Assembly (NCBI RefSeq): GCF_002105155.1
Contig: NW_019029011.1
Span: forward strand, 186,001 to 250,000
DNA length: 64,000 nt
Direction: 5' to 3'
DNA from: Lobosporangium transversale
Lineage: Eukaryota > Mortierellomycota > Mortierellomycetes > Mortierellales > Mortierellaceae
Part shown: positions 1-40,061 of the stretch, in pieces
How the letters are laid out: each line of letters starts with the position of its first letter
Numbering within the stretch: position 1 is the first letter of the stretch
The notes under the pieces: model-generated
The model's database searches: none
What the model saw: only the letters and a program-made list of their open reading frames with translations
Told to the model about the DNA's origin: nothing
Program-made: the position numbers and the translations under genes

Positions 1-1295
1 AAGTGTACCTCAATCTGTTCTGGTGTCCTTGTGTTTAAAATCTCAAGGTTCTTCTTACGTTCCATTTCCCTGCTCTTATCGTATGCCATTGAGGAAAGCA
101 GCTGGGCCTTTTCCACTGCCTGTGATGGATCTGTTGTCCGGATCCTAATCAGAGTGCGGTTAATGGTGTAATAACGGTCCTTCAGATCTTCCATGGATCT
201 TGTCTTTGGTGCCGTGAAAGGCACAATTTCTTTAGATGGAGATGAAGATCCCGATAGTACAACCGAAGTAGAAGCATCAGCCCTTATTGGAGCAGTCAAT
301 GATGAATAAGCTCCGTTATCTGTCAATGTCGATGATGCCGCTTCTCCTGCTGCTGCTGTTATCGTGGTTCCTGACGATGACCCATCAACGGTAGAGGCTG
401 ATACTGAAGGCTCAATCTCCATCGCTGACGAGGCATCTATTTTTCTTATGGTATGATTAAAAGAGGATGTGTCGACTCCGGGCCGTTTATTGCCATTATA
501 ATAAGTCAGTGCCAGACGATCCTGCTCTTGTGGAGGCCATTCATACCGATCCTGGATTACAACCCAACGTAAATCAAATTTCCGGCAGAGTTCCCACAGG
601 TAGTTAGTTTCTTCTAGGGTCCAATCAGGATCTTCGAGATGTGCCGCATATTCTTCTGGAGTAAATGTTCTCATGTCAATCTCCTTGTTGAATCTGTAAA
701 AGCGGTATTCTTCATTCGGGTCAGTTCTAGTCTTTTCCCAATGATGCAGAATCAAGTCATCATCTCGAGAGGGGTTGACAAACGGTCGCCACGTCCTGGG
801 AATCACAATGGTGGTCATGGTAATAAGAAATGACGTCGAAGAGGCGCCGCTCGATGTCAGTATAGGTTCTGCAACACAACAGGGTACGGTAGATAATTAG
901 TTAGCTGTTACTTTACTAACCAGTTGACAGCTTTCTTGCTGACGTTTAGTTTTGGTTTATAAGTTGGGTTATTGAAGGCTACTGTTGAGACATTGTTTCC
1001 GATAAGGCCATACAGCTCACGACTAATACCATCTGTTCCCATATTCAATATTGTTGGTGTTGTCGTTGTCGTCGATGTTGTTGTGGAGTAGGAAGAAAGG
1101 AAAGAGCGTATGTTAGTCTTTCATGATGTTATTTCGTACTTTATTAAATTGTTTTTTTTTTTTTTTTTTTTTTTGGATGATTAATAGAAAAGAAAAAAGA
1201 GACATGCCTGGCTTCTTCTCTGTCTTGTGCACACGTTTGGCTAGCTCAGTAGGTTTGAGTTGAAAGATCTCGCGAACATCATTCCCTGTTGCCAT
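1..1295 (-). CDS. SWC4: SWC4/DMAP1-type chromatin subunit, 3' end outside window
   Basis: Shared subunit of the NuA4 acetyltransferase and SWR1 remodelling complexes; acts in the nucleus. Proposed exons on the minus strand are 1295-1208, 1032-921 and 795-1. The product begins MATGNDVREIFQL, very close to the start of animal DMAP1, and continues through KKPDGISRELYGL and a WTWRPFVNP motif. The SANT/Myb-like region follows (DPDWTLEETNYLWELCRKFD, then WVVIQDRYEW). An insert of about 100 residues rich in Ser/Thr/Ala separates it from the RSMEDLKDRYYTINRTL helix, a split SANT layout. About 331 residues are visible and the C-terminus is cut by the window edge. Intron 1 has a GC donor; phase and homology both require it. 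The gene is divergent to GID8 across about 1 kb. Assignment is by recognised family motifs. Confidence 0.9.
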
Positions 1296-2280
1296 GACGG
1301 CACAAAAGAAATGGAAGAATGAATTAATGAATAAAGCGAGGAAGAATGAAGAGTAAATGAAGTGTAGGAGTGTGGGGAATAAATAAAGGCTTACGGGGTG
1401 TAACGAGACCCTATTTTTTTTATTCCATTAATTCTCTCCATTACATTGTTTTTGTTTCTGCCAATCCCCACACCTCATTCACTATTGTATCTGTTGCCAC
1501 CATTGCCTTAACATTGTAGCATTGCAGCACAAACGACAAGCATTACAAATTAAACTACAGCAAGCTAACCATTCAAACACTGACTACACAGTACACACAA
1601 CACACGCTGCTGCCATTGTTCACCTTCTCGTTACTCCCTTGTACAACTCTTGGGACTCTTGTCTTTCTCTCGCTTATCGCTATCTCTGTCTCATTGCTAG
1701 CTTCAAAGACTCAACGTCGCTCTCGTGCCATTCTCAGTACTACTACTGCTAGTACCATGGTAAGGATGAAGTCTCATACTCAATCATAAAAAAAAGTATA
1801 TTATTTAACGTGTTGGAGAGAAGAGAAATGTTCATTATGCATTTATATATACACATTCTATTTTCATTCAAAAGTCTACAACATCCATCAAAAGAGTGTG
1901 CTGCGTTTACTATGCTATTTACTTTTCTACCTTTTCTACCTCCCAATGTGCTCATGGACATCATGACTGCTTGCACTGATCATCCTGTCATATCCTATCG
2001 TATAATTTCTCCACACATCGATTTTTCCCGTGAGATTGGCTGTACGGCATTGTAGTCAGCCACTAGGCAACAATGTCTGCGGGAAATGCTCATTTAGCAT
2101 CACGCTTGATGTTAGCTTTTTTTTTTTTTTTAATGACACCAATCCCTGCATTCGTCTCTCTTTCTCTCTTCTTTCGCCTTCTTTGTCCTCATTCTGTTGT
2201 GGAGAACTTCTTTCTCTTATTTATTCTCTGAGCTATTTACAACTAAACCTTTGTCCCACACTGCTCTCAACGACGACGAT
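1296..2280. promoter_or_regulatory. Divergent intergenic region SWC4/GID8
   Basis: About 985 bases separate the two oppositely oriented starts. It holds AT-rich DNA and C/T-rich stretches before both genes, and short open frames without recognisable protein features. No RNA gene or repeat was seen. It presumably contains both promoters (inference). Confidence 0.4.
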
Positions 2281-3834
2281 ATGCCATCTTCCCCAACCAT
2301 TGTCTCCCCTTCTTCTTTATCTCCATCTCCTCACTCGCGGTCAACATCCTCGAATTCTTCCACAGCAACGAGAGCAGCAACACTACCGTCTAATGGCCCA
2401 ACATCGTTACTTTCTGGGGGTATCCCTCGGCTTTTTATAGCGGGGTTACTCTGGATTACCTTGGTTATCACAGCCGCACACCTGTTCATACTCTCTCATG
2501 TGGGCTTTCTTGTTCTTAACTGCTTCTCTCACTTGACGGGGCCAGCACCTCCTTCCTCCACCTCCACTTCCTCTTCAACCCCGACCTCATCTCCATCTCT
2601 ATCTTCTACACGTTCTCCTCCACGGCAAGAAGAAAGATCCATTTCCAGAAACACCACAGATGAGCGTCCTGTTAGTGCTGTTTCTATATCAACATCATCA
2701 TCATCCGCTCGTTATCATTATAGCAACCGTATCAGTAACATGAACTCCCGATCTGCGTCTCATCATCATTCCTTACAGTCAAATACACAGGCATCAAACC
2801 AAGTTCCCGGAGCTGTAGGTGTCCAGAAACGGGTCTTTACCAAGGAAGAATGGGATGCTCGACTGGCGGAAATCCATGTTGATCGTGAGTAAGTATAACT
2901 TTTCTTAATAAAAAAAAATGGAGAGTAAAGGTTGATCCAAGCAATAAAAACAAAAAAATCTAGGTTTTGTTCTGATGTGTCCGATGACCTTGCTTTTATT
3001 CTATCCATCTTCAGAGACTTGAACAAACTGATCATGAACTATCTGATCATTGAAGGATACAAAGATGCGGCAGAGAAATTTAGCCAGGAAAGTGGTGCTA
3101 AACCGCCTGTCAATTTGGAGTCCATCCAGGACCGCATGATTGTTCGAACAGCTATTCAGCGTGGCAACATTGAAGAGGCGATCGAGCGAGTCAATGATCT
3201 TAATCCGGAGGTAACAAACGCCTTTTTTTAAAAAAACTTGACAAAAGTTATAGTAGGGGCTTTTGTTGTGTAACTGATATTATGCATGGCGCATTTTGTT
3301 ACATTGTGCAGCACTAATTTTTTTTTTTTTTCTTTCCCGTGCATGGGGTTATAGATTTTAGACACAAACCCGAAACTGTATTTTCACTTACAACAGCAAC
3401 GTCTGATCGAACTTATTCGTGAGGGGCGGGTCATGGAAGCACTTGAGTTTGCTCAAGAGGAGCTAGCGCCACGTGGGGAAGAAAATGTAAGTCTGGGAAC
3501 TCACCTCGGGTTCAGTTTAAGCCTGGAATGAAGCATGTGCATGAGATGACATATCGTTAATATGCGGTGCTCTTCCTTGCCTTTGCTTGCTTTTTTTTTT
3601 TATTTTTTATTTTTTTTTTATTTTATTTTTTTTTATTTTATAGCCAGAGTTTTTGGCTGAGCTAGAGAAAACCATGTCACTATTGGCGTTCGAGCTGAAT
3701 GGACCCTCGCCTGTAAGCGACCTTCTCACACCTGCCCAGAGACAGAAGCTTGCTTCAGAGCTCAATGCAGCATTACTGCTCTCGCAGTCACAAGAGAAAG
3801 ATCCCAAGGTATATGCTTTACGCATCATTATTAT

Positions 3835-5279: not shown

Positions 5280-7660
5280 TGTATGTATGTATAGAGGGAG
5301 GAGGAGGAAAGGAATAAAAAGAGGAGGACGAGAGGAGAATGATTAAAAAGAGGGCGACAGTAATAAGGAAAGAGAAGGGAGGAAGGAAATCTCTTTGAGG
5401 TAAAAGTAAAATGGAAAGAGTAAAGGGTGATCAAGCAAGGGCCACTTATTCTTTATTATAAGATAATGTTCCTGAAAAAGGAAAACAAAATGAAACAGCC
5501 ACATTAGTCAATTGCACGTATTAATTTATACGTACACACAGTAGATATTCTTTTTCTTTCACAAGGACAAATTTGCCATTATAAATGGGCTTAAAACCCA
5601 GCAATCCATGGGCATTGTCTTGAAATTTTATTTCAATGTCGAAATAAATGGCCGAAACTAAATTGTCATGGAGCTATCCTGGCTTCTTTATTTGTGCAAA
5701 TAAAAAACTCATGAAGACTTTCGCATGACCCTAGCATCCTCTTGGGAGTCCATTGTATCGTTTATTTATTGACTGATGTAATATAACAGCGATAATATTC
5801 GCTGCCGTAGTATCGACTTGAAAGGAGGGCAATCTGAGTGGAATCATTCTTCCGCACGATGGAGCTTGACTAACTTGATCTTTTCTTGTACAGCTCGGCA
5901 AGACTTGATTTGTCACATCGTTCGCTTCCTCGTCTTCTTGCATTCCCTTGATATATCTGGCTTGGTAAACAGCTTATAGAGTTTGTTGGGCCTGTTGAAA
6001 CCAGAGGGAACCACAGCAACATATCATACCCAAAGTGATACAAATATCTCTGTTGGAGTGAGTGGTGAACTGTGTGTGGCTCAGATGTAGTGGACATAAA
6101 GGGCGAAAGAATGCATCGAAAGGATGTGAGCGGTTATGAGAACAAGAAAGAAGGGGTTGGTGTGCCTGTTCAAGCCTTTGGCAAGAGAGCATGAGTAGCA
6201 GTTGTGATCAATGGTATAGTTTCTAGACCCTATCTTCCACGTACAGCATTGCATTATTGTTGTTTTCAGACCTGGCACCAATCATGCGAGGTATTTCTTT
6301 TTCTGAGGGTTCCTTGTTAAACGGCCAGACAGAAAGCTTAGAAGAGATACAGACACAACGGTGAAAAAAATGTATGTGAGCAAACAGTTGCTGTGCTTAT
6401 TTGTTGTCTGCACATGCCTTCTTTCATCGCAGGCTTTTTTTTCCTTTTTTGTTCGTCAATCACTGTGTGCATGAACATGCTTTGGATTCTGTACATGAAT
6501 AAAAACATTTTACATCGCGGCGTCTTTTTTTGTTCAAAACACAAGCGTTTTCCATCGGTGCCTCCAAACAAACTTTATTTTGGCAGCCACTCCACAATCA
6601 TCCCATGGTTATAACAATCCCTAGGAAAGGATCAAACGCGTCGGTATCAATCTCGCTATTTCTAGATGCATATGTTTTGGCGATTGATATCAACTATCAA
6701 ATTCACACATACACACACCAAACGACCGCCAAAAACCACCACTCTCGCTTCTGCTCTCCCTCCATCCACAAGGCGCTGCGCAATATCACCATTAACAAGG
6801 CATTGTCCAGTAAGAAAGGGTGCTTAGATAGCTTTTACTCCAAGCAATAAGCGCATGCAACTACATCACTCCTATCTCCGCCATTGGTGCCGGAATCTGA
6901 GAGTCAACGAATATCTCTGCTTTAATGCAATAGTACTGGGGCTGTTGGAGCAAAGAGCATCATATGAAGCCATTCTCTGATAAAAAAGACTTTTTTTTCT
7001 TTAGTTGTTACCTTTGACAAGGATATAATCACCGAGGCATATCTGTCAATGCATTTATTACCCCTGTTCAAAATTATAAATCTTCTTTTATTCATTAAAT
7101 TCTTCACAAAGTACAAAGCAAGGGCCAGTGCAAACAAAAGAAACTGAAAAAAAAAAAAAATTGTGTAACAAAGGATCGACATCGACACTGTATGCTGTAT
7201 CTGGAGATGATTTTTTCGAATGCTCACTTTGGTATCTCAATGCTATTGTTTCCAATCTGCCGTTCATGCGAGAGCTTGTATTTATTTGTCAATCTCTGCT
7301 ATTGACTTGGACAAAATCCCAATCCAAACAAAGGAACTGAATAAAGATTGATGTGGCCTGTGAAGCAAAGGATCGATATCAAAACCATATGAGACAATGT
7401 TAAAATTCATCATCAATCCAGGATATAAAAAGGGATTATTGTCTTCCTCCTTTTCCGCTCGCTCACTTCAAAGTCCCATCCCTTTTACCACTGCCACTTG
7501 TTCCTGTATCTTTCCCTCAATATTCTTTACCTATTCACTTTGGATCTTTAAACCATAAAAAGCTCATCCTTTTATACCTTTGTCGCTCTTTTTTTTTCTT
7601 TTTCATTTCTTTTCATCACCATTCTCCCTTTTTTCTTTCTCTTTCGCTTAGATATTGACC
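5280..7660. other. Gene-free stretch upstream of the FEN1-like ORF
   Basis: This 2.4 kb has only short open frames without family features, T-rich and A-rich runs, and no recognisable RNA gene. The last ~220 bases before 7661 become strongly C/T-rich, as in leaders of expressed fungal genes in this window, so a promoter for the FEN1-like ORF is possible (inference). Confidence 0.4.
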
Positions 7661-8701
7661 ATGGGGCTGAAGTCCTTCTTCAAACTGGTTGCAGATCGCG
7701 GGGTTTTACCTTCGGGAACTGACGTGGGCACTTTCTTGGCGGCAAATCCTGACCATTCTGTTCATGTAGATCTCCTCGGTACGTTCTATTACGACATCCT
7801 CTGCAGAGTCGTCCATGCAAAGATGAAAAACGAATCCATCATTGATGTAGGAAGGCCCCTGGCTCTCGAGATAAAGGATCTTTTCATGACGGACAATCTG
7901 ACTATACATATTGGTGGGGAACTTTGTACTCAAAAAGAAAAAGCAAGGACAGAGCGGCAAGCCATAAGACAAAAAAATATGGATGCTTTGGAGAACAATA
8001 TGAGCACCTTCGAGAGAAATTCTCGGAGTGGGGTATGGACTCGTCCTCAAGTCATGAGGCGCATCCAGAAGGGTCTTCGAGAAGTCCACACCCTGAGCGT
8101 CCAGGACAAAAATCAGCTGGCAACAGGCTTTGGCTCTGTCTTCGATGTCTGTCTGTGTGCATATGAAGCGGACCCATGCATAGGGTGCCATAATGAGGGG
8201 AATGATAGGATCGTGATATCCCAAGACTCTGATTTTTTTGCGTACGAACGAGTCTGCATCCTAGTGCGACCCCTTCCACACCGTAGACGGAAGTTTGGGG
8301 CTTACGATGTAGACAACGTTAGCCAAGCACTAAGACTGCCATCACACGAGCATCTGATATTATTCTGTGCCATCGCAGGCAATGACTACTCAAGGAACCT
8401 CGAGACGTTAGGCCCGATTAATAATCTTCGATTAATTCGAAACGTTGCGTGGAACGAGAACTACAATAAAATGCTTCGGGACTACCTGAGGGAAGCTATT
8501 AAGGTGTTGGGAAGGAACGCAGCCTCTGAAGAAGGCCGTTTCAGAGTAGCTCTCGGCACTTTTACTTCCGGCCATCAAACGTCGGCCCAAGCGTTACCAT
8601 CGAACAATGAGTTCGATAACTTCAAGCAACGTCTACTCAATGGAAAGGATCTTCGCCATAGAATGGTTCAGCAAAGGCGAGCGCAGCGCCGCAGAGCGTA
8701 A
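7661..8701 (+). CDS. FEN1/XPG-like (PIN-fold) nuclease, 346 aa, element-associated
   Basis: Intact single-exon ORF resembling 5' flap nucleases of the XPG/FEN1 superfamily. The start MGLKSFFKLVADRGV matches the XPG-N opening (MG-x-K/Q-G-L pattern). Residues around 45-55 (HVDLLGTFYYDIL) replace the usual AVDASxxLY strand. A basic middle part follows. The XPG-I-like part has CAYEADPCIG (family: PYEAEAQCA), VISQDSDFFAY (family: EDxDxLxF), and AIAGNDYSRNLETLGPINNL, a GxDY plus helix-hairpin-helix segment. Several acidic residues are kept, so activity is conceivable but untested. It ends in a basic RRAQRRRA tail. Reading frames continue immediately downstream into a Lys-rich linker and a Fanzor-like nuclease, suggesting it was the N-terminal part of one larger element protein. 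It differs clearly from the cellular Rad2-family gene at 51-54 kb. Confidence 0.72.
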   Translation: MGLKSFFKLVADRGVLPSGTDVGTFLAANPDHSVHVDLLGTFYYDILCRVVHAKMKNESIIDVGRPLALEIKDLFMTDNLTIHIGGELCTQKEKARTERQAIRQKNMDALENNMSTFERNSRSGVWTRPQVMRRIQKGLREVHTLSVQDKNQLATGFGSVFDVCLCAYEADPCIGCHNEGNDRIVISQDSDFFAYERVCILVRPLPHRRRKFGAYDVDNVSQALRLPSHEHLILFCAIAGNDYSRNLETLGPINNLRLIRNVAWNENYNKMLRDYLREAIKVLGRNAASEEGRFRVALGTFTSGHQTSAQALPSNNEFDNFKQRLLNGKDLRHRMVQQRRAQRRRA

Positions 8702-8773
8702 GAAAGCTCAAGCTATAGTTTTAGCCTTGAAACCAAACGTCCCCAATACTAATCGTTAGTCAATTTCTTGGAT

Positions 8774-9651
8774 AATGTAGAGACACACCATCATTCTATA
8801 TAGCGAAACATAGAAACCAGTTCCGGCCCATCTTTTCTGACAAGGCGAGCATATTGAAAGGGCGCACACTTGATATCAGTAAATGCCGTCAGCACGATAG
8901 GCCGGGCCTTAAGCATCCACCACGTCGGAGAAAGGCAAAAAAGAAGCAACAGAAAAAACAAAAGCGGAAGCACAAAGGCAAGAAGCCTCACAGGGCTAAA
9001 AAAGAAGGTGCACCAATTAGGAACTTGAAGGATGCTACGAAGGTTGATCACAGCTACAGCAGTAAGCACCCTATCAAGGCCTTAACAATTGGGTCCTCAA
9101 GGCTTCCATGGCAAGGAGAGGCGGACTGGACGCAAATGAAAGGGATAATATTGCAAGCCAGATCCGAGGGGCAGTTGTTGTCCTCAGCCGACTAAGCCGC
9201 TATGCATTATGCATACTGGGCGGTTGCCTTGGACATTGAGAGGATCATGCGGTTACCAGGGGCAGCAAGGTCGAGGAAAAAGGCACTGGACGAGGTCTTG
9301 GATAGCAATGACTATTCCTTCCGTCTCGCCACCCTCCTTTTAAGTGGTCAAGGTGGCCCCAATTCAGCTTACGCGAGGGCAAAAAACAAGGAAGGGTGGT
9401 AGAAACTCCCCATTATCTCCTCGCTTATGAACGTTTCAAGGCCACCACTGAACTTTCCCCAATAAAGGAAATAGACATCACATTGGGGGACGCGCAAGGC
9501 TTTGATCCCAAAAAGATCTCATTTCCAAGAGCGTCAGAGCTACTAATGGGCTAAGTACAGACATCATTAAGGCAGCACTACAGGAACGCAATGGTATAGC
9601 TTGTGTAGGGTATTTCATGCATATTCTGCAATCAAATGCTCTTTATTCAGA

Positions 9652-9682
<31 letters not shown>

Positions 9683-10985
9683 CTAGTTTGATGTCGAGAA
9701 AACAAACGAAGATATGAGCGACATTGAGTTTTTTTTGCGGGAGAACAAAAAAGTGAAAAAATACTCAGACTTTCCTACGTCCCCCTGGTCACCCGGGTAT
9801 GTGTATCTGTCTGAACACGCCCTAGTTGACATCCTCTGGGCGAACGAAGATACCAAGCAGCTGCTGGAGCGTATTCTGCCTCTCAACAATCCTTCCAAGA
9901 CTGCAATGTTTGAGTGTGTACAGGGAACAAAAGGGGTTTTGATACAGGCTCTCTTTTGTGACATTGGAGGTGATCGCATGGTATCGAGACAAAGTATCCC
10001 TGCAGTCGCAGGACAAAGATATAACTCGGTTCAAACTCAAAGGAACGATTTCTACCAACGGTCTAGTTCTGAATCTACTAGCCTATGATACAACCCAGAG
10101 GAAGAGACAGAAGCAGTCTGACGTAGATGAAGAAGACCTCAGCCAAGAACTGGAGCTTTCTCAGGGATTTCTCAACACGACGTGTTCAAAGGCAGCCGGT
10201 GAAGACCTGACAGATGAAGACTATGCAAACATAAACTGGAAGAGGAGCTCCAAACTGCTTGAAAACGTTGAGCTCACATTCAACGAGCCAGAGCGATGCC
10301 CATCCGCAAACACTACAACTATCGTCGGATGCGATCCTGGTATTGTTAACGCCCTTACGTTTTCCTCCCTGGATCCTCACAACCATAACTTGCGGCAAAC
10401 GGTAAAGGTGAGAAGCAGGTTCTTGTACCTCCCCGTCCTCCGCTTCAATCACCTGTTGAACAAAAGGAAGCGTGAAAAAGGAATGATTGAGGTTGAGAGC
10501 GCCATCCCTGTGTTTGGAAGGGATACGTACAATGAGTACTTTCAATGGATGAACGAGGAGTCCCAGACACAGATAGGATCAAAGAATTTGGATGTGCTTC
10601 AAGAGTTCTACGAGTCCAGATGGCACCTGAAAAAAAAATGGGACCTACGAAAGGCTCAGCGAGCTACGTTCGACTACGTGGTACAGCGAGTGTTGAAGAT
10701 GTTCGGGGAAAAAGGAGTGCTTGTCGTCGGCCTAGGATCCTTTGAAAGTAGTAAAGGAGTTCCCAGCAAGCGCTGTCCCCGACCCCTCTGTGATAGCTTT
10801 TAGAGATGGTGTACCCTCGCTCTAAATATTACCGGACATGTAAGGTATTCTTCGACCGTGACGCAGTAGGGGCGGAAAACATCGCAAGAATCGGTCTTGC
10901 TCAAATTGAGAGGCAAGAGAGACCTGCAAAGTACAAACCCCCGGAAGAGTCGGCTGCTCCGGGTGCAAAACGCGCACGACGCTAG
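8774..10985 (+). pseudogene. Fanzor-like (eukaryotic TnpB/RuvC) RNA-guided nuclease, degraded
   Basis: Broken gene. Open from about 8774 with a very basic linker near 8930-9000 (KAKKKQQKKQKRKHKGKK), an in-frame TAA at 9193, and shifts after about 9400. An intron with a long T tract ends at 9686. Coding resumes at 9687 (FDVEKTNEDMSDIEFFL), shifts frame near 9950, and runs to about 10800. RuvC-I is TTIVGCDPGIVNALTFSS (Asp near 10333). The helical part is LYLPVLRFNHLLNKRKREKG and AIPVFGRDTYNEYF. A LVVGLGSF strand precedes a damaged zinc-finger area (SKRCPRPLC, two frames). RuvC-III is TCKVFFDRDAVGAENIARIG (10836-10895), followed by a basic tail stopping at 10985. The order RuvC-I, zinc finger, DRDxxxAxNI is the TnpB/Fanzor signature. 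At least three frame breaks make a functional product unlikely from this copy. Confidence 0.82.
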
Positions 10986-12459
10986 ACACAAGTATTTGGG
11001 TGCCGGCATACCCACAAAAAATTTGTAAGTTCTGTTTATTTTCGTCTCCTGTATCCTCTCTACCTAATCTTTTGCCTCTGAATTTCTGGACTAGCTTTGA
11101 AAATCGTACAGATCAACAGATACGAAGGAGAACCAATCAACGCCTCAATACTTCGCGATGGATCCAATGACTACAATCTTCTTGAAGGCAGATACAGACC
11201 CTGCCTATTGGTTTGCTGCTGCAGTGATCTTTAAGCCTTATCTAAATAGCAGGAGGGTATTTGGGACATATGTACTTATCATAATTATCGATGACACTTA
11301 AACCATATTCGTATAAGACATTTCACTTCGAAACGTCTTCTTTCCCTAGGACTTCCTATCATAAAAACCATGACTCCCAATTTAGCCTTGTGCTCTGACA
11401 ACGACTCATGATTTTTAAATGTTATTAGATTTTGGCATCGATTTTGTTTCCTCTGGATCCATGAAGAGGAAAAACAGTCGTTTCATTTGCTGTATCTTCA
11501 TCTGGCACCCTAAAGCAGATGGACGAGTATCATGCCGATCGCCTCAGCATAAGGGTTCGACTTATTATAAAAGGATGCAGCTATTACTTCGATAGAGTAA
11601 TCATTGGCGATTCAGGTGTCTACCATAGAGGTTCTTTACAAACTCGCGAGTTGAGATCTTCTTTGGGAAACACTGTCCAATGTCTAGAACAGAAATGCCT
11701 GCCATGAAAATTTGATACCGGCTGTAGTACATCAACAACATGTATAGCCGTTGATCTTTCCGTTGGTTACCAAGGAAATATACTCGCCTTATCTAAAGAA
11801 TCCCTTTGCTAACCTAAGGAGAATAATGAGCGTTGCCTATGAAGAGAAATAAAATACATAAGAGCATTGTCCTTTTTATTAACGAAAGCTGCTTTTTCGG
11901 CAACTACCACTGGCAGTAAGAACGCTGGTTTAACTCATTTGAGATCTTGGTCGCTGTAATATCCAGTAGTCTGCTAAAATGAGTGCGAATACTTGTCATG
12001 ATTCCCCTGACAAGCTCTAGCTGCGGTACATATAGGGGGGTGTCGTCATATTTTCTTTGTTGGCTGAAGATTGGCAAAAGGCGCGGATGCGCGAAATCAT
12101 CTCATAAAAACGTCCCTCTATATCACGGACTGATGTGCTTGAAATAGCCATTGGACTGTCCTCTCATTTTCAGTAATTTTTCAAGCAAAAAATACTCAGC
12201 TGGCCTAAGTACAAATATCTTTATTAATTCGAGAATATTTTCAATGCCTTCTGCCTGCAACTATTGTCACCTTTGCATGAGCAATCAAAGGTCAAACTAT
12301 GAATTAATATACCTTTAGAATTTTTCTCTTTACAATTTAAGGAGAAAGAAAGACAACACTTTAGAATAACAGTTACATTAATTAGGCAATAATCTACATG
12401 CACAAGGGCCTGTTAAATTCATTTTTATTTCAGAGATTTTTTTTTTTTTTTTTTTTTTT
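10986..12459. other. Gene-free stretch between Fanzor remnant and TRA1
   Basis: No gene is recognised. A possible donor (GTAAGT near 11025) and acceptor (near 11094) surround a short codon-like stretch (IVQINRYEGEPINASILRDG), which may be extra element sequence. No terminal inverted repeat flanking the element was found by eye. A T homopolymer (about 12439-12459) abuts the TRA1 stop codon. Confidence 0.4.
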
Positions 12460-38000: not shown

Positions 38001-38928
38001 GCTCTTATTTCTTTTTTCTGTTTAACCCTACGCCAATTTCTTTTATTCACTTTTCCTTCCCTTAATAGTCCCATTGATATTTCACATTACATCCTTACCC
38101 ATACTACCTTTTAGTAATGGGAATCGAGAGCCCTCGGTCTCCTCTTCTAAAGAAGGGCTACGAGACGACTCTTCACTACTACGCATCAGCCTGCTCGATC
38201 TTTAACCCTTCCAACTCCTTGAGCCACAGTACCTATACCAGACTCGATATCCCGGGAACCTTACTCCAATCATTCCCTAGATACAGCCCACAAGATCCTG
38301 GAAAGAGGGCTGGGAGGTATAGAACGCCTGGGAACCTTGCCCACTATCTCGGTGGCGACCTCTGTGAGGGAAAAAGGCTTACTCATATACACTGAGAGAA
38401 GGTGCGAGCCAAGGCATTGATAGACGCTTAAGAAGGGCTCGACGAGCCAGATTGACGCGTGGGAAGCAAGCGTCGGATCTGAAAGAAACAATTCTTGACC
38501 ATTACAAAGGCATTATAGGTAAAGCCTTTCACTGATCGAAGGAAGCATGAGATTTGTTCGCGAAGCACCTGTGGAGCAAGAACTGACTTACTCAAGAATG
38601 TTAATTCCAAGTAAACGTCGCTATTGTGACTGGTTGCCAGCTCGAAGTTATTGTGCCTCGAGACAGTGATTCTGGTGTATAAGCTTACAAATGTACTTGC
38701 CACCCTGAGCATTACACGGGTTCAGCTAACAGTACTGTGCATAGTGAGCAACTGGCAGCCCGACTTGGAAACATCCCTAACTACGAAATTGCCAGGAAGA
38801 AGGATGGATAAATTAATGGCATACTATAAAAAAAAGTCTAAAAGTTTGGATATCATATTAAAGTCCCTCTTTTTTAAAAAAAGAAAAAAAATACCCCAAG
38901 AGCATTGTATAAGACCCTTGTGAGACAA
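35085..38928. other. Gene-poor region with possible decayed element fragments
   Basis: Nearly 4 kb without a supported gene. Short codon-like pieces occur, for example 38403-38517 (basic RRLRRARRARLTRGKQASDL, then KETILDHYKGII), resembling the basic linkers of transposon nucleases but unassigned. Other frames (around 36.0-37.8 kb) are interrupted by many stops. It is probably old mobile-element debris next to the second Fanzor remnant (inference). Confidence 0.35.
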
Positions 38929-39027
38929 TGAAGTGAAGAGAAACAGAGTAGCTGACAGGCACTTTGAAGACACTATACGGATTTCCGTGGATCAACAGCA
39001 AAGCAAATGCCTGTCAGCTTCACTTCA
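38929..39027. repeat. Interrupted inverted repeat, hairpin-capable
   Basis: Left arm TGAAGTGAAG (38929-38938) and GCTGACAGGCA (38951-38961); right arm TGCCTGTCAGCTTCACTTCA (39008-39027) is their reverse complement, with a 12-base interruption in the left arm and a 46-base loop. It sits about 260 bases upstream of the second Fanzor remnant. Confidence 0.8.
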
Positions 39028-39285
39028 GACTCCTGTACTTGGTTTGAATAGAAGGTGGCGTGGTAATGTACTAGCTCTTTATCCCTTTTCCCCTGCATTT
39101 CCGTTGTTCTAGCCCACTTTTGCAACCTTTACATGGACATTGCATTCCAGAAGAACAAGTGCTCAGATACGTTCAATACCTTTCGCTCTATCGGTCGAGT
39201 TCCTTTCTAATAGCCTCCTTCTGCCGCAGGAACGAAGTATAAGTGTCGAGAGCGGTATTCATTCAAGACTCCCGAAAACTCGAGC

Positions 39286-40061
39286 ATGCTCCTCCAGAGG
39301 TCAAAAAGCAATACAGTAGAAAGAGCAAAAAACAACTCTAACGCAGATGCTCTTGATGCTAGCGAGCAAAAGAAGCAGAAGGAAAAGGCGACAAAGCCAC
39401 GAAAAACGGTGGACGAAATGGATAAAAATGGCTTGACCAGGGCTATGCAGTATGAACACCGAACTAGGTTCTTGATATCGGAACTGTCAATGGTAACTTG
39501 AGTAGAATACTGAATGATAAGCCAAGGTTAAGACCTGCCTCCAAGAAGTCATTTGCCACGCTTCGAAGAACAAGCGTGCTTGCCAGAGAGTTATTGACCA
39601 GTACATTGAATAGCTTTCAGCTACCTCATCTGAACGGTAGATATATATTAGCACTCCGACCGATATCCATACTTTATTTTTTCTTTCAGGCCTAATCCCT
39701 TAGCTACATAGTTGTCAGTGTGAATGAATAATATTCCTCCAAGAAGTACACGAGCTGCCAAGGAATTGTGGGACAGGTTAATATCCGCTAGCTTTATTGC
39801 TCCAAATGCAACGCATTTATGCATAGAGATGTGATAACCAGCTACAACATAGCCAACATCGTCCGTGGCTATCTGCTCTACCAACAGCGACCCCCATATT
39901 TTCAGCCGATAGACAAGGATGGAAATTATTCTTGGATGGATGACAGCCGTTCAGTGTACACCAAACATCAAGCACTATTCAAGGCAGAGGGCCAAGAAGC
40001 AAGAAAAAAGCGTGTCAGCAGACACGCTAGACTAGTTTGGAGTCAACGATCTTTCCACTGA
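39286..40061 (+). pseudogene. Second Fanzor/TnpB-like nuclease remnant (C-terminal part)
   Basis: Decayed coding DNA in two frames. 39286-39490 gives a Lys-rich stretch (SEQKKQKEKATKPRKTVDEM) and GLTRAMQYEHRTRFLISEL. A shift follows, then NLSRILNDKPRLRPASKK in frame 3. A probable intron ends near 39690. From 39711, frame 3 reads VVSVNE, stop, YSSKKYTSC, GQVNIR, stop, LYCSKCNAFMHRDVITSYNI and ANIVRGYLLYQQRPPYFQP. This is the TnpB/Fanzor zinc finger (C-x2-C of the second half kept; one Cys of the first half is Tyr) directly followed by the RuvC-III HRDVxxxxNI motif. In-frame stops are at 39729 and 39786. No RuvC-I was found upstream. Its sequence differs from the 8.8-11 kb copy, so it is a different lineage, not a duplicate. 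Confidence 0.78.

Follow-up and report, generated by a model that had tools for sequence, protein, structure and literature searches.

Does a nuclease reading frame of the XPG/FEN1 type that lies directly upstream of a Fanzor nuclease belong to the same protein, and if so, what might it do there? This question is raised by a stretch of DNA from the fungus Lobosporangium transversale, positions 186,001 to 250,000 of contig NW_019029011.1 (RefSeq assembly GCF_002105155.1), hereafter the window. The window spans 64,000 nucleotides and corresponds to G000:C55:186001-250000 in the genome that was searched, which comprises 42.7 Mb in 127 contigs. A sequence-only reading had placed, between 7661 and 10985 on the + strand, an XPG/FEN1-type open reading frame (ORF) with a lysine-rich stretch and a RuvC ORF carrying the motif GCDPGIVNA downstream of it on that strand, and these features were all found at those places. 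It had left a choice between two parts of one protein of about 1050 amino acids and an operon-like pair of genes. It had also pointed to Mucoromycota genomes for comparison; the host belongs instead to the Mortierellomycota (Mortierellales).

The locus is probably a decayed copy of a Mortierellales DNA transposon encoding a Fanzor1-type nuclease, the N-terminus of which is fused to an XPG/FEN1 nuclease that would process the guided cut. It is very likely that the XPG and Fanzor parts lie in one predicted protein, and in better-kept relatives the single spliced gene, together with the catalytic residues of both nucleases, can be seen in the sequence. The copy in the window is dead and is one of many.

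The evidence for a single gene comes from comparison of the copies. The segment is repeated in the genome: positions 1-3111 of the 3325-base query recur at 16 other places with 93–95% identity, and there are many shorter partial matches. In the family to which the window copy belongs (family A), one gene with four exons and three introns in phase would give a single protein of about 1060 amino acids. The introns of copy L015 are 84, 83 and 83 nucleotides long, in phases 2, 0 and 0; the phase of intron 3 was taken from copies L012, L013 and L027 because the frame of L015 breaks just before that intron. Across a census of 20 family A copies, from which L028 was excluded, GT-AG borders are found at intron 1 in 20/20 and at intron 2 in 19/20, the exception being L026 (GT-AT), and intron 3 is GT-AG in all 19 copies that have it. 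After splicing, the order of domains is XPG, then the linker with the N-terminal Fanzor region, then RuvC-I/II, and lastly the zinc finger with RuvC-III.

Public gene models, which are independent of the present analysis, contain the same junctions. The family A model P0001 splices exon 1 in frame to exon 2, using a donor a few codons upstream of the one inferred here. Models of a second family in the same genome (family B) have all three junctions at homologous points, the first and third in P0006 and the second in P0004. The peptide just past the junction of exons 1 and 2 is also similar in the genera Podila and Lobosporangium (PPFYVAPGSHKNQYRPIF and PSFYIAEGSHRNQFRPIF, respectively). These observations bear on the possibility that two adjacent genes of one element, with separate proteins, have been wrongly joined both by gene callers and by the present analysis. 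Exon 1 does meet a stop codon just past the donor, so that an unspliced message would give an XPG-like protein of 346 amino acids. However, every copy of the census retains both splice-site dinucleotides of intron 1 (GT and AG), the junction peptide is alike in two genera, and gene models of several genera join both parts, which makes such a misjoining very unlikely. Of the two arrangements first proposed, the operon-like pair thus gives way to a spliced fusion, and the single protein is borne out by in-phase GT-AG introns, public models, and two-domain proteins in other genera.

Those other proteins extend the fusion well beyond family A. A protein search of the same genome returned family B (XPG part 31% and Fanzor part about 40% identical) and family C (XPG part 24% identical), in both of which the Fanzor part lies downstream of the XPG part in the same orientation. 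A profile built from families A, B and C retrieved seven proteins, including two-part proteins from Podila verticillata (1260 amino acids) and Benniella sp. (1160 and 643 amino acids). A search with the Fanzor part only returned 47 proteins, the named genera being Lobosporangium, Benniella, Dissophora, Gamsiella, Mortierella, Entomortierella and Modicella, all generally placed in the Mortierellaceae. The three protein searches scored 7994, 7993 and 7998 candidates, namely those sharing most words. The 50 proteins collected were found with full-length or Fanzor queries, and they carry little information on unfused XPG relatives. Eight of them match both profiles (P0001, P0003, P0005, P0007, P0008, P0029, P0043 and P0050), with the whole XPG profile matched in P0003 and P0005 and part of it in the remaining six. 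The eight consist of the Podila protein, the two Benniella proteins, an Entomortierella protein of 312 amino acids (partial XPG), and four Lobosporangium models (partial XPG). When the Podila protein was compared with NCBIfam, fen_arch matched at residues 15-267 (0.034) and guided_TnpB at 1172-1238 (8.9e-6), both under the curated cut-offs. No phage relatives of the family B XPG part were found, and a scan for viral relatives with a single protein, that of Podila, gave no pattern match.

As judged from sequence, the fusion is present in six families. That a FEN1-like pseudogene of the host merely happens to lie beside a Fanzor element is hardly credible given this recurrence: the same layout is repeated in the 16 other long copies, in families B and C, and in other genera, and nothing was found in favour of chance adjacency, which was ruled out.

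The two parts are also linked across the genome and in their divergence. For 38 of the 69 genome matches to the Fanzor zinc-finger domain TNB, an XPG match lies no more than 6 kb upstream on the same strand, where about 0.4 such neighbours would be expected by chance (83 XPG matches in 42.7 Mb, with copies that are not independent). This tally used all 69 TNB rows and 83 of 121 XPG rows; the 38 rows omitted were further pieces of listed copies, although some such pieces were kept. Forty of the 83 XPG rows are without a listed TNB partner, including the family A copies on C66 and C14, where the Fanzor part is visible at the DNA level. Pairwise identities of the XPG and Fanzor parts correlate among the six families (Pearson 0.82, Spearman 0.80; 15 non-independent pairs). 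The XPG and Fanzor parts have stayed joined and diverged in parallel, which points to joint action.

The downstream part has the character of a Fanzor, as originally proposed. Exon 4 corresponds to the Pfam domain Cas12f1-like_TNB (PF07282), with scores above the cut-off of 26.3 bits in family A (27.9), family B (30.6), family C (41.7) and the Podila protein (33.2). A profile running from RuvC to the finger matches the mimivirus TnpB-like protein L79 (1.2e-5 for the whole sequence, 2.2e-5 for the best stretch) and SpuFz1 (8gkh; 4.4e-4 for the whole sequence, with a best stretch of 0.02 from RuvC-II to the finger), and bacterial TnpBs rank after both. The marks of a Fanzor given by Yoon and colleagues are a DPG motif and a glutamate placed six residues ahead of the first cysteine of the finger, and the same article ascribes a TDG motif to Fanzor1, in its passages on these motifs (PMC10711439). 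Among the six rows of the family alignment, DPG is found in four: GCDPG (family A), GIDPG (family B), GMDPG (Podila), and GIDPG (Benniella 1). It is absent from Benniella 2 (GIDSG) and family C (GLDLG). The glutamate is present in four of the six rows (EFYTSARC, EYYTSAKC, EYYTSKKC, EFWTSAKC), with families A, B and C and Podila included. Benniella 1 stops ahead of the finger, and Benniella 2 stops inside it, having EYYTSAKC there but no second cysteine pair. Five of the six rows have TNG or TDG, and Podila has CNG.

Known Fanzor1 proteins such as SpuFz1 of Spizellomyces punctatus thus share with the Mortierellales proteins a DPG-containing RuvC domain, a displaced RuvC-II glutamate, a C4 zinc finger of the TNB type, an RD-type RuvC-III and a TDG-like motif. 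The Mortierellales proteins differ in having approximately 350 extra N-terminal residues of the XPG/FEN1 type and a lysine-rich linker, in a first cysteine pair of the form CxxxxC in families A and B and Podila, and in DLG replacing DPG in family C.

The FEN1-like identity of the upstream part likewise held. A profile built from seven sequences matches solved archaeal flap endonuclease-1 at 6.3e-9 (best single stretch 2.8e-6), RAD2 at 1.5e-6, EXO1 at 2e-5 across residues 1-273, and XPG at 0.0034; these are whole-sequence E-values, and the best single stretches are weaker. In total, 32 solved chains were matched, with no Fanzor among them. Seven acidic residues (family B positions 36, 85, 171, 173, 190, 192 and 243) align, through FEN1, RAD2 and EXO1, with the metal-binding set of the XPG/FEN1 family. 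All seven are among the 29 columns out of 316 that are invariant in six family representatives (window copy left out), which are 24–49% identical in pairwise comparison; by column count, this has a probability of about 3e-8. Within family A, each acid is kept in 18/19, 18/20, 19/19, 19/20 or 20/20 copies. The Pfam domain XPG_I matches six of the seven profile members at E up to 1, with a best value of 3.9e-5. The likeness to the FEN1/EXO1/XPG (Rad2) 5' nucleases includes an MG start, the seven-residue acidic set, and the I-region with the region following it, as aligned by profile. In contrast to those enzymes, the element domain shows only weak profile similarity, is borne by a transposon, and is fused to a guided nuclease. 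The XPG part is related to the XPG/FEN1/EXO1 family and probably works like it, yet it stands outside the curated core.

Several observations weigh against the reading set out above. The first concern the integrity of the fusion. None of the 20 family A copies is intact, the longest open reading being 984 amino acids, and L018 and L027 are without the 5' part. The Fanzor profile alone is matched in 42 of the 50 collected proteins, many of which are partial or cut models, and the rows for families A, B and C in the Fanzor profile and six-family alignments are partly composites. Of the 69 TNB matches, 31 have no listed XPG partner, a group that includes deletion derivatives and 5'-truncated pieces. 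Fanzor parts standing without an adjacent XPG part had been raised as a sign of independent domains; the four such loci examined (C62, C106, C45 and C104) are all broken or 5'-truncated relatives, with no credible XPG match in 4.3-4.6 kb. Three of them (C62, C106 and C45) are family C-like, and a further locus, on C94, is a cut family B-like piece with no XPG part.

Other points concern the XPG part and the guide RNA. The XPG profile also matches two chains of an unrelated designed protein (6een) at 0.0029 and 0.06, and its weaker matches are therefore unsafe alone. Scores for XPG_I fall below the Pfam cut-off of 24.9 bits in the window ORF (17.8), family B (13.9) and Podila (13.0), and at E up to 1 the domain was not listed for exon 1 of L015 or for the whole Benniella proteins. 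With respect to the guide RNA, the last 140 nucleotides of the element show no significant fold: they do no better than shuffled sequences in family A (z of +0.79 in L015 and +0.56 in the window copy) and slightly better in family B (-1.14). Finally, among 19 family A copies, the non-synonymous to synonymous ratio (N/S) of shared variants is 0.78 in the XPG exon, compared with 0.65 in exon 2, 0.30 in exon 3 and 0.66 in exon 4. Recent constraint on the XPG exon is therefore weak, or has been swamped by decay.

This weak constraint within the family would suit a different role, in which the fusion is real but the XPG part has lost its nuclease action on the guided cut. Its function would instead be that of a module for structure recognition or DNA binding, at an R-loop, a terminal inverted repeat (TIR) or a replication fork, helping the Fanzor to find its substrate. 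Such a role is considered unlikely, since the seven acids are kept in all six representatives despite their divergence, and binding alone does not need a full metal-binding set.

The ends of the elements and their target sites bear on a further alternative. As had been suggested, alignment of copies defines the ends: family A elements run from TATCCC to ...AACAGATA, the longer copies measuring approximately 5.6-5.8 kb. The ends of family B elements are inverted, TATAGCCCGTTCCATT on the left and TATAGTCCGTCCCATT on the right (inverted), with 14 of 16 bases alike. A pattern covering these ends, TATAGYCCGTYCCATT, has 41 exact matches, and its reversed control has none. Full family B copies have their ends about 5.6-6.2 kb apart, and three end pairs with a spacing of 2-4 kb (C67, C42 and C2) are internally deleted derivatives. 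The mutual match of the family A ends is short and imperfect. Both families have TA on both flanks. Paralogous unoccupied sites were found for two family A insertions, a single paralogue at 76% identity for one and three at 81-86% for the other. These sites read TATA at the junction, as would be expected of insertion without net duplication or of an excision scar. Judged on the element ends and the unoccupied sites, neither Helitron ends nor classical Tc1/mariner ends fit fully.

The 5' part of the window copy gave no recognisable transposase: seven of the nine frames of at least 70 codons were scanned, without a Pfam match at E up to 0.1. A 237-codon frame in L012 likewise gave no transposase, just a domain of unknown function (DUF) at 0.05. 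Elsewhere in the genome there are 154 matches to DDE_3, which is of the Tc1/mariner type, many with open frames of 339-381 codons; none lies within the window among the matches listed. The element is not classed as an autonomous Tc1/mariner member because a DDE transposase of its own was not recognised. Some known Fanzor1s are also found in transposons without their own transposase, according to passages in PMC10711439 and PMC3627910.

These data could be taken to mean that the XPG part serves the transposon, processing intermediates of excision or gap repair for a transposase that acts in trans, with the fusion doing no more than securing co-delivery. The inverted ends of family B and the recurrence of their pattern, the internally deleted derivatives, the many DDE_3 matches with open frames, and the unoccupied sites all speak for such a role. 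However, the XPG and Fanzor parts stay joined and diverge in parallel, and known TIR transposons use host enzymes for the excision and gap-repair step. A service of this kind is therefore improbable.

The preferred reading, that of an XPG/FEN1 nuclease processing the guided cut, can be developed into a tentative mechanism, in which one chain with two active sites would combine a guided cut by RuvC with a cut of flaps or R-loop strands by XPG, the break and its resection forcing homologous repair that favours the transposon. A protein of this kind would be a natural dual-nuclease homing machine, diversified across the Mortierellales, a description of the same model that is plausible but somewhat less likely than not. 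An RNA from the right end of the element would guide the RuvC domain, as in other Fanzors, to sites such as the empty donor or an uninserted allele. The XPG domain would be brought to the target by the fusion and the lysine-rich linker, and would cut the resulting structures, such as 5' flaps, the single-strand/double-strand junctions of the R-loop, the displaced strand, or the 5' ends of the break. The resected break would be repaired from the element-bearing copy, so that the element is kept or spread. For transposition itself, the element may depend on a transposase, Tc1/mariner-like or of another kind, provided in trans. A guide RNA from the right end is expected from membership of the Fanzor family and is a candidate only.

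The copy in the window carries the gene in damaged form, and all of the following features lie on the + strand. The sequence-only reading was correct in that 7661..10985 runs from the start codon to the end of the stop codon, but the element is larger. By the limits of alignment between copies, the whole family A copy occupies 5546..11122, with a degraded left end that reads TATTC... where sister copies have TATCCC..., and a right end that reads ...ACAGATCAACAGATA. The 5' part (5546..7660) has a longest stop-to-stop frame of 115 codons. Exon 1 (7661..8697; 346 codons), placed by the XPG-type profile and residue alignment, encodes the XPG/FEN1-type nuclease domain; its ORF has 349 codons from stop to stop, with a methionine at 7661. 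The catalytic aspartate at codon 85 (7913-7915) is changed to glycine (D85G), and the other six of the seven acids are kept. Intron 1 (8698..8780; GT-AG, 83 nucleotides) contains a branch-point-like ACTAATC and was placed by comparison of copies, as was intron 2 (9594..9686; GT-AG, 93 nucleotides). Between them, exon 2 (8781..9593) holds the junction peptide, the lysine-rich linker and the N-terminal Fanzor region, with small indels that break the frame. Exon 3 (9687..10771), delimited by motifs and copy comparison, contains the TNG motif region, RuvC-I (GCDPG) and the RuvC-II region.

Approximately 170 bp are missing beyond this point, comprising the end of exon 3, intron 3 and the start of exon 4. 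The window aligns to its sisters as two blocks, 7661-10771 and 10763-10985, which have 9 bp in common and are separated by about 160 bp in the sisters. Those 9 bp, seen when the window and sister copies are compared, are a repeat at the deletion point (10763..10771), and the missing stretch lies between two such repeats. The remnant of exon 4 (10772..10985), recognised by its motifs and from sister copies, carries the rest of the zinc finger and RuvC-III (DRDAVGAENIA) up to the stop codon. The second cysteine pair of the finger reads YYRTC, compared with YCRTC or YCRAC in sister copies, where the zinc-finger exon is longer and its cysteines are kept. The damage noticed earlier in the finger therefore consists of the deletion and one further changed cysteine. 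The 3' non-coding end (10986..11122) is, by position only, the expected place of a Fanzor guide RNA scaffold; an Rfam scan of the window gave no match at the gathering threshold.

A further XPG-Fanzor element, heavily damaged and belonging to family C, lies in the window at 38078..40058 (+ strand). It has a reading that resembles an XPG start and part of the XPG domain, has lost most of the RuvC core, and has a TNB zinc finger at 39708-39851. The XPG remnant is weak (4.4e-5 over 30 positions), and the element was counted as XPG-less in the genome tally.

Some arrangements among the copies are recorded as separate observations. Family B copies (L030:233-751, -, and matching places) carry an antisense, decayed piece of about 0.5 kb resembling family A Fanzor exon 3, upstream of the XPG exon and mostly 56-61% identical to query residues 77-249. 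At G000:C37:47280-47580 (L039) and in L022, the start of a family A element coincides exactly with a family B right end (GGACTATCCTTTAAACC), as if that end were the target. The family A copies L015 and L016 share their 3' flank and differ in their 5' flank; in unoccupied sites, the 5' flank of L016 runs directly into the shared 3' flank, and inter-copy recombination or a one-sided event is therefore likely for L015. L028 (G000:C44:226500-236400) consists of two family A pieces in head-to-head inverted orientation, with Fanzor exons on both strands. The two halves of a family B copy are separated at G000:C58:144422-144853 by a DDE_3 frame of the mariner type, which was probably inserted later.

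How does this element compare with what has been described? The open-access literature yielded no pairing of Fanzor with XPG, with a PIN domain, or with Mortierella. Fanzors were reportedly surveyed widely by Jiang et al. in 2023. The only wording found that places a Fanzor beside a flap endonuclease is a sentence on viral homologues in a preprint (PMC11071296), and that one sentence is ambiguous as to whether one protein or two are meant. A Fanzor1 with an added domain is already known in PpFz1 of the fungus Parasitella parasitica, the FRI (RuvC insertion) of which binds cyclophilin; unlike the XPG part, the FRI sits within RuvC rather than at the N-terminus, and the account of it in PMC11423790 mentions no nuclease role in the passages describing the insertion. 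PGv-1 and similar mariner elements (Bao and Jurka 2013; PMC3627910) also combine a Fanzor1 with a second nuclease in one transposon. As described in the entries for these elements, however, the endonuclease and Fanzor are separate ORFs, the endonuclease is of the GIY-YIG type rather than XPG, and a transposase is present. The element is predicted to unite a Fanzor and a FEN1/XPG-type nuclease in one protein, a combination not encountered in the open-access papers searched; it suggests that certain guided nucleases come with an enzyme of their own to process the cut.

The attachment of a conserved nuclease for flaps or other structures also bears on why eukaryotic transposons retain Fanzors, in that it points to the processing of ends after the cut and the choice of repair. 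If this is true, the element would be a natural example of a guided nuclease equipped with its own resection enzyme, a design that could interest those who wish to bias repair during genome editing. In fungal genomics, the element accounts for a repeat family that present gene models break into fragments.

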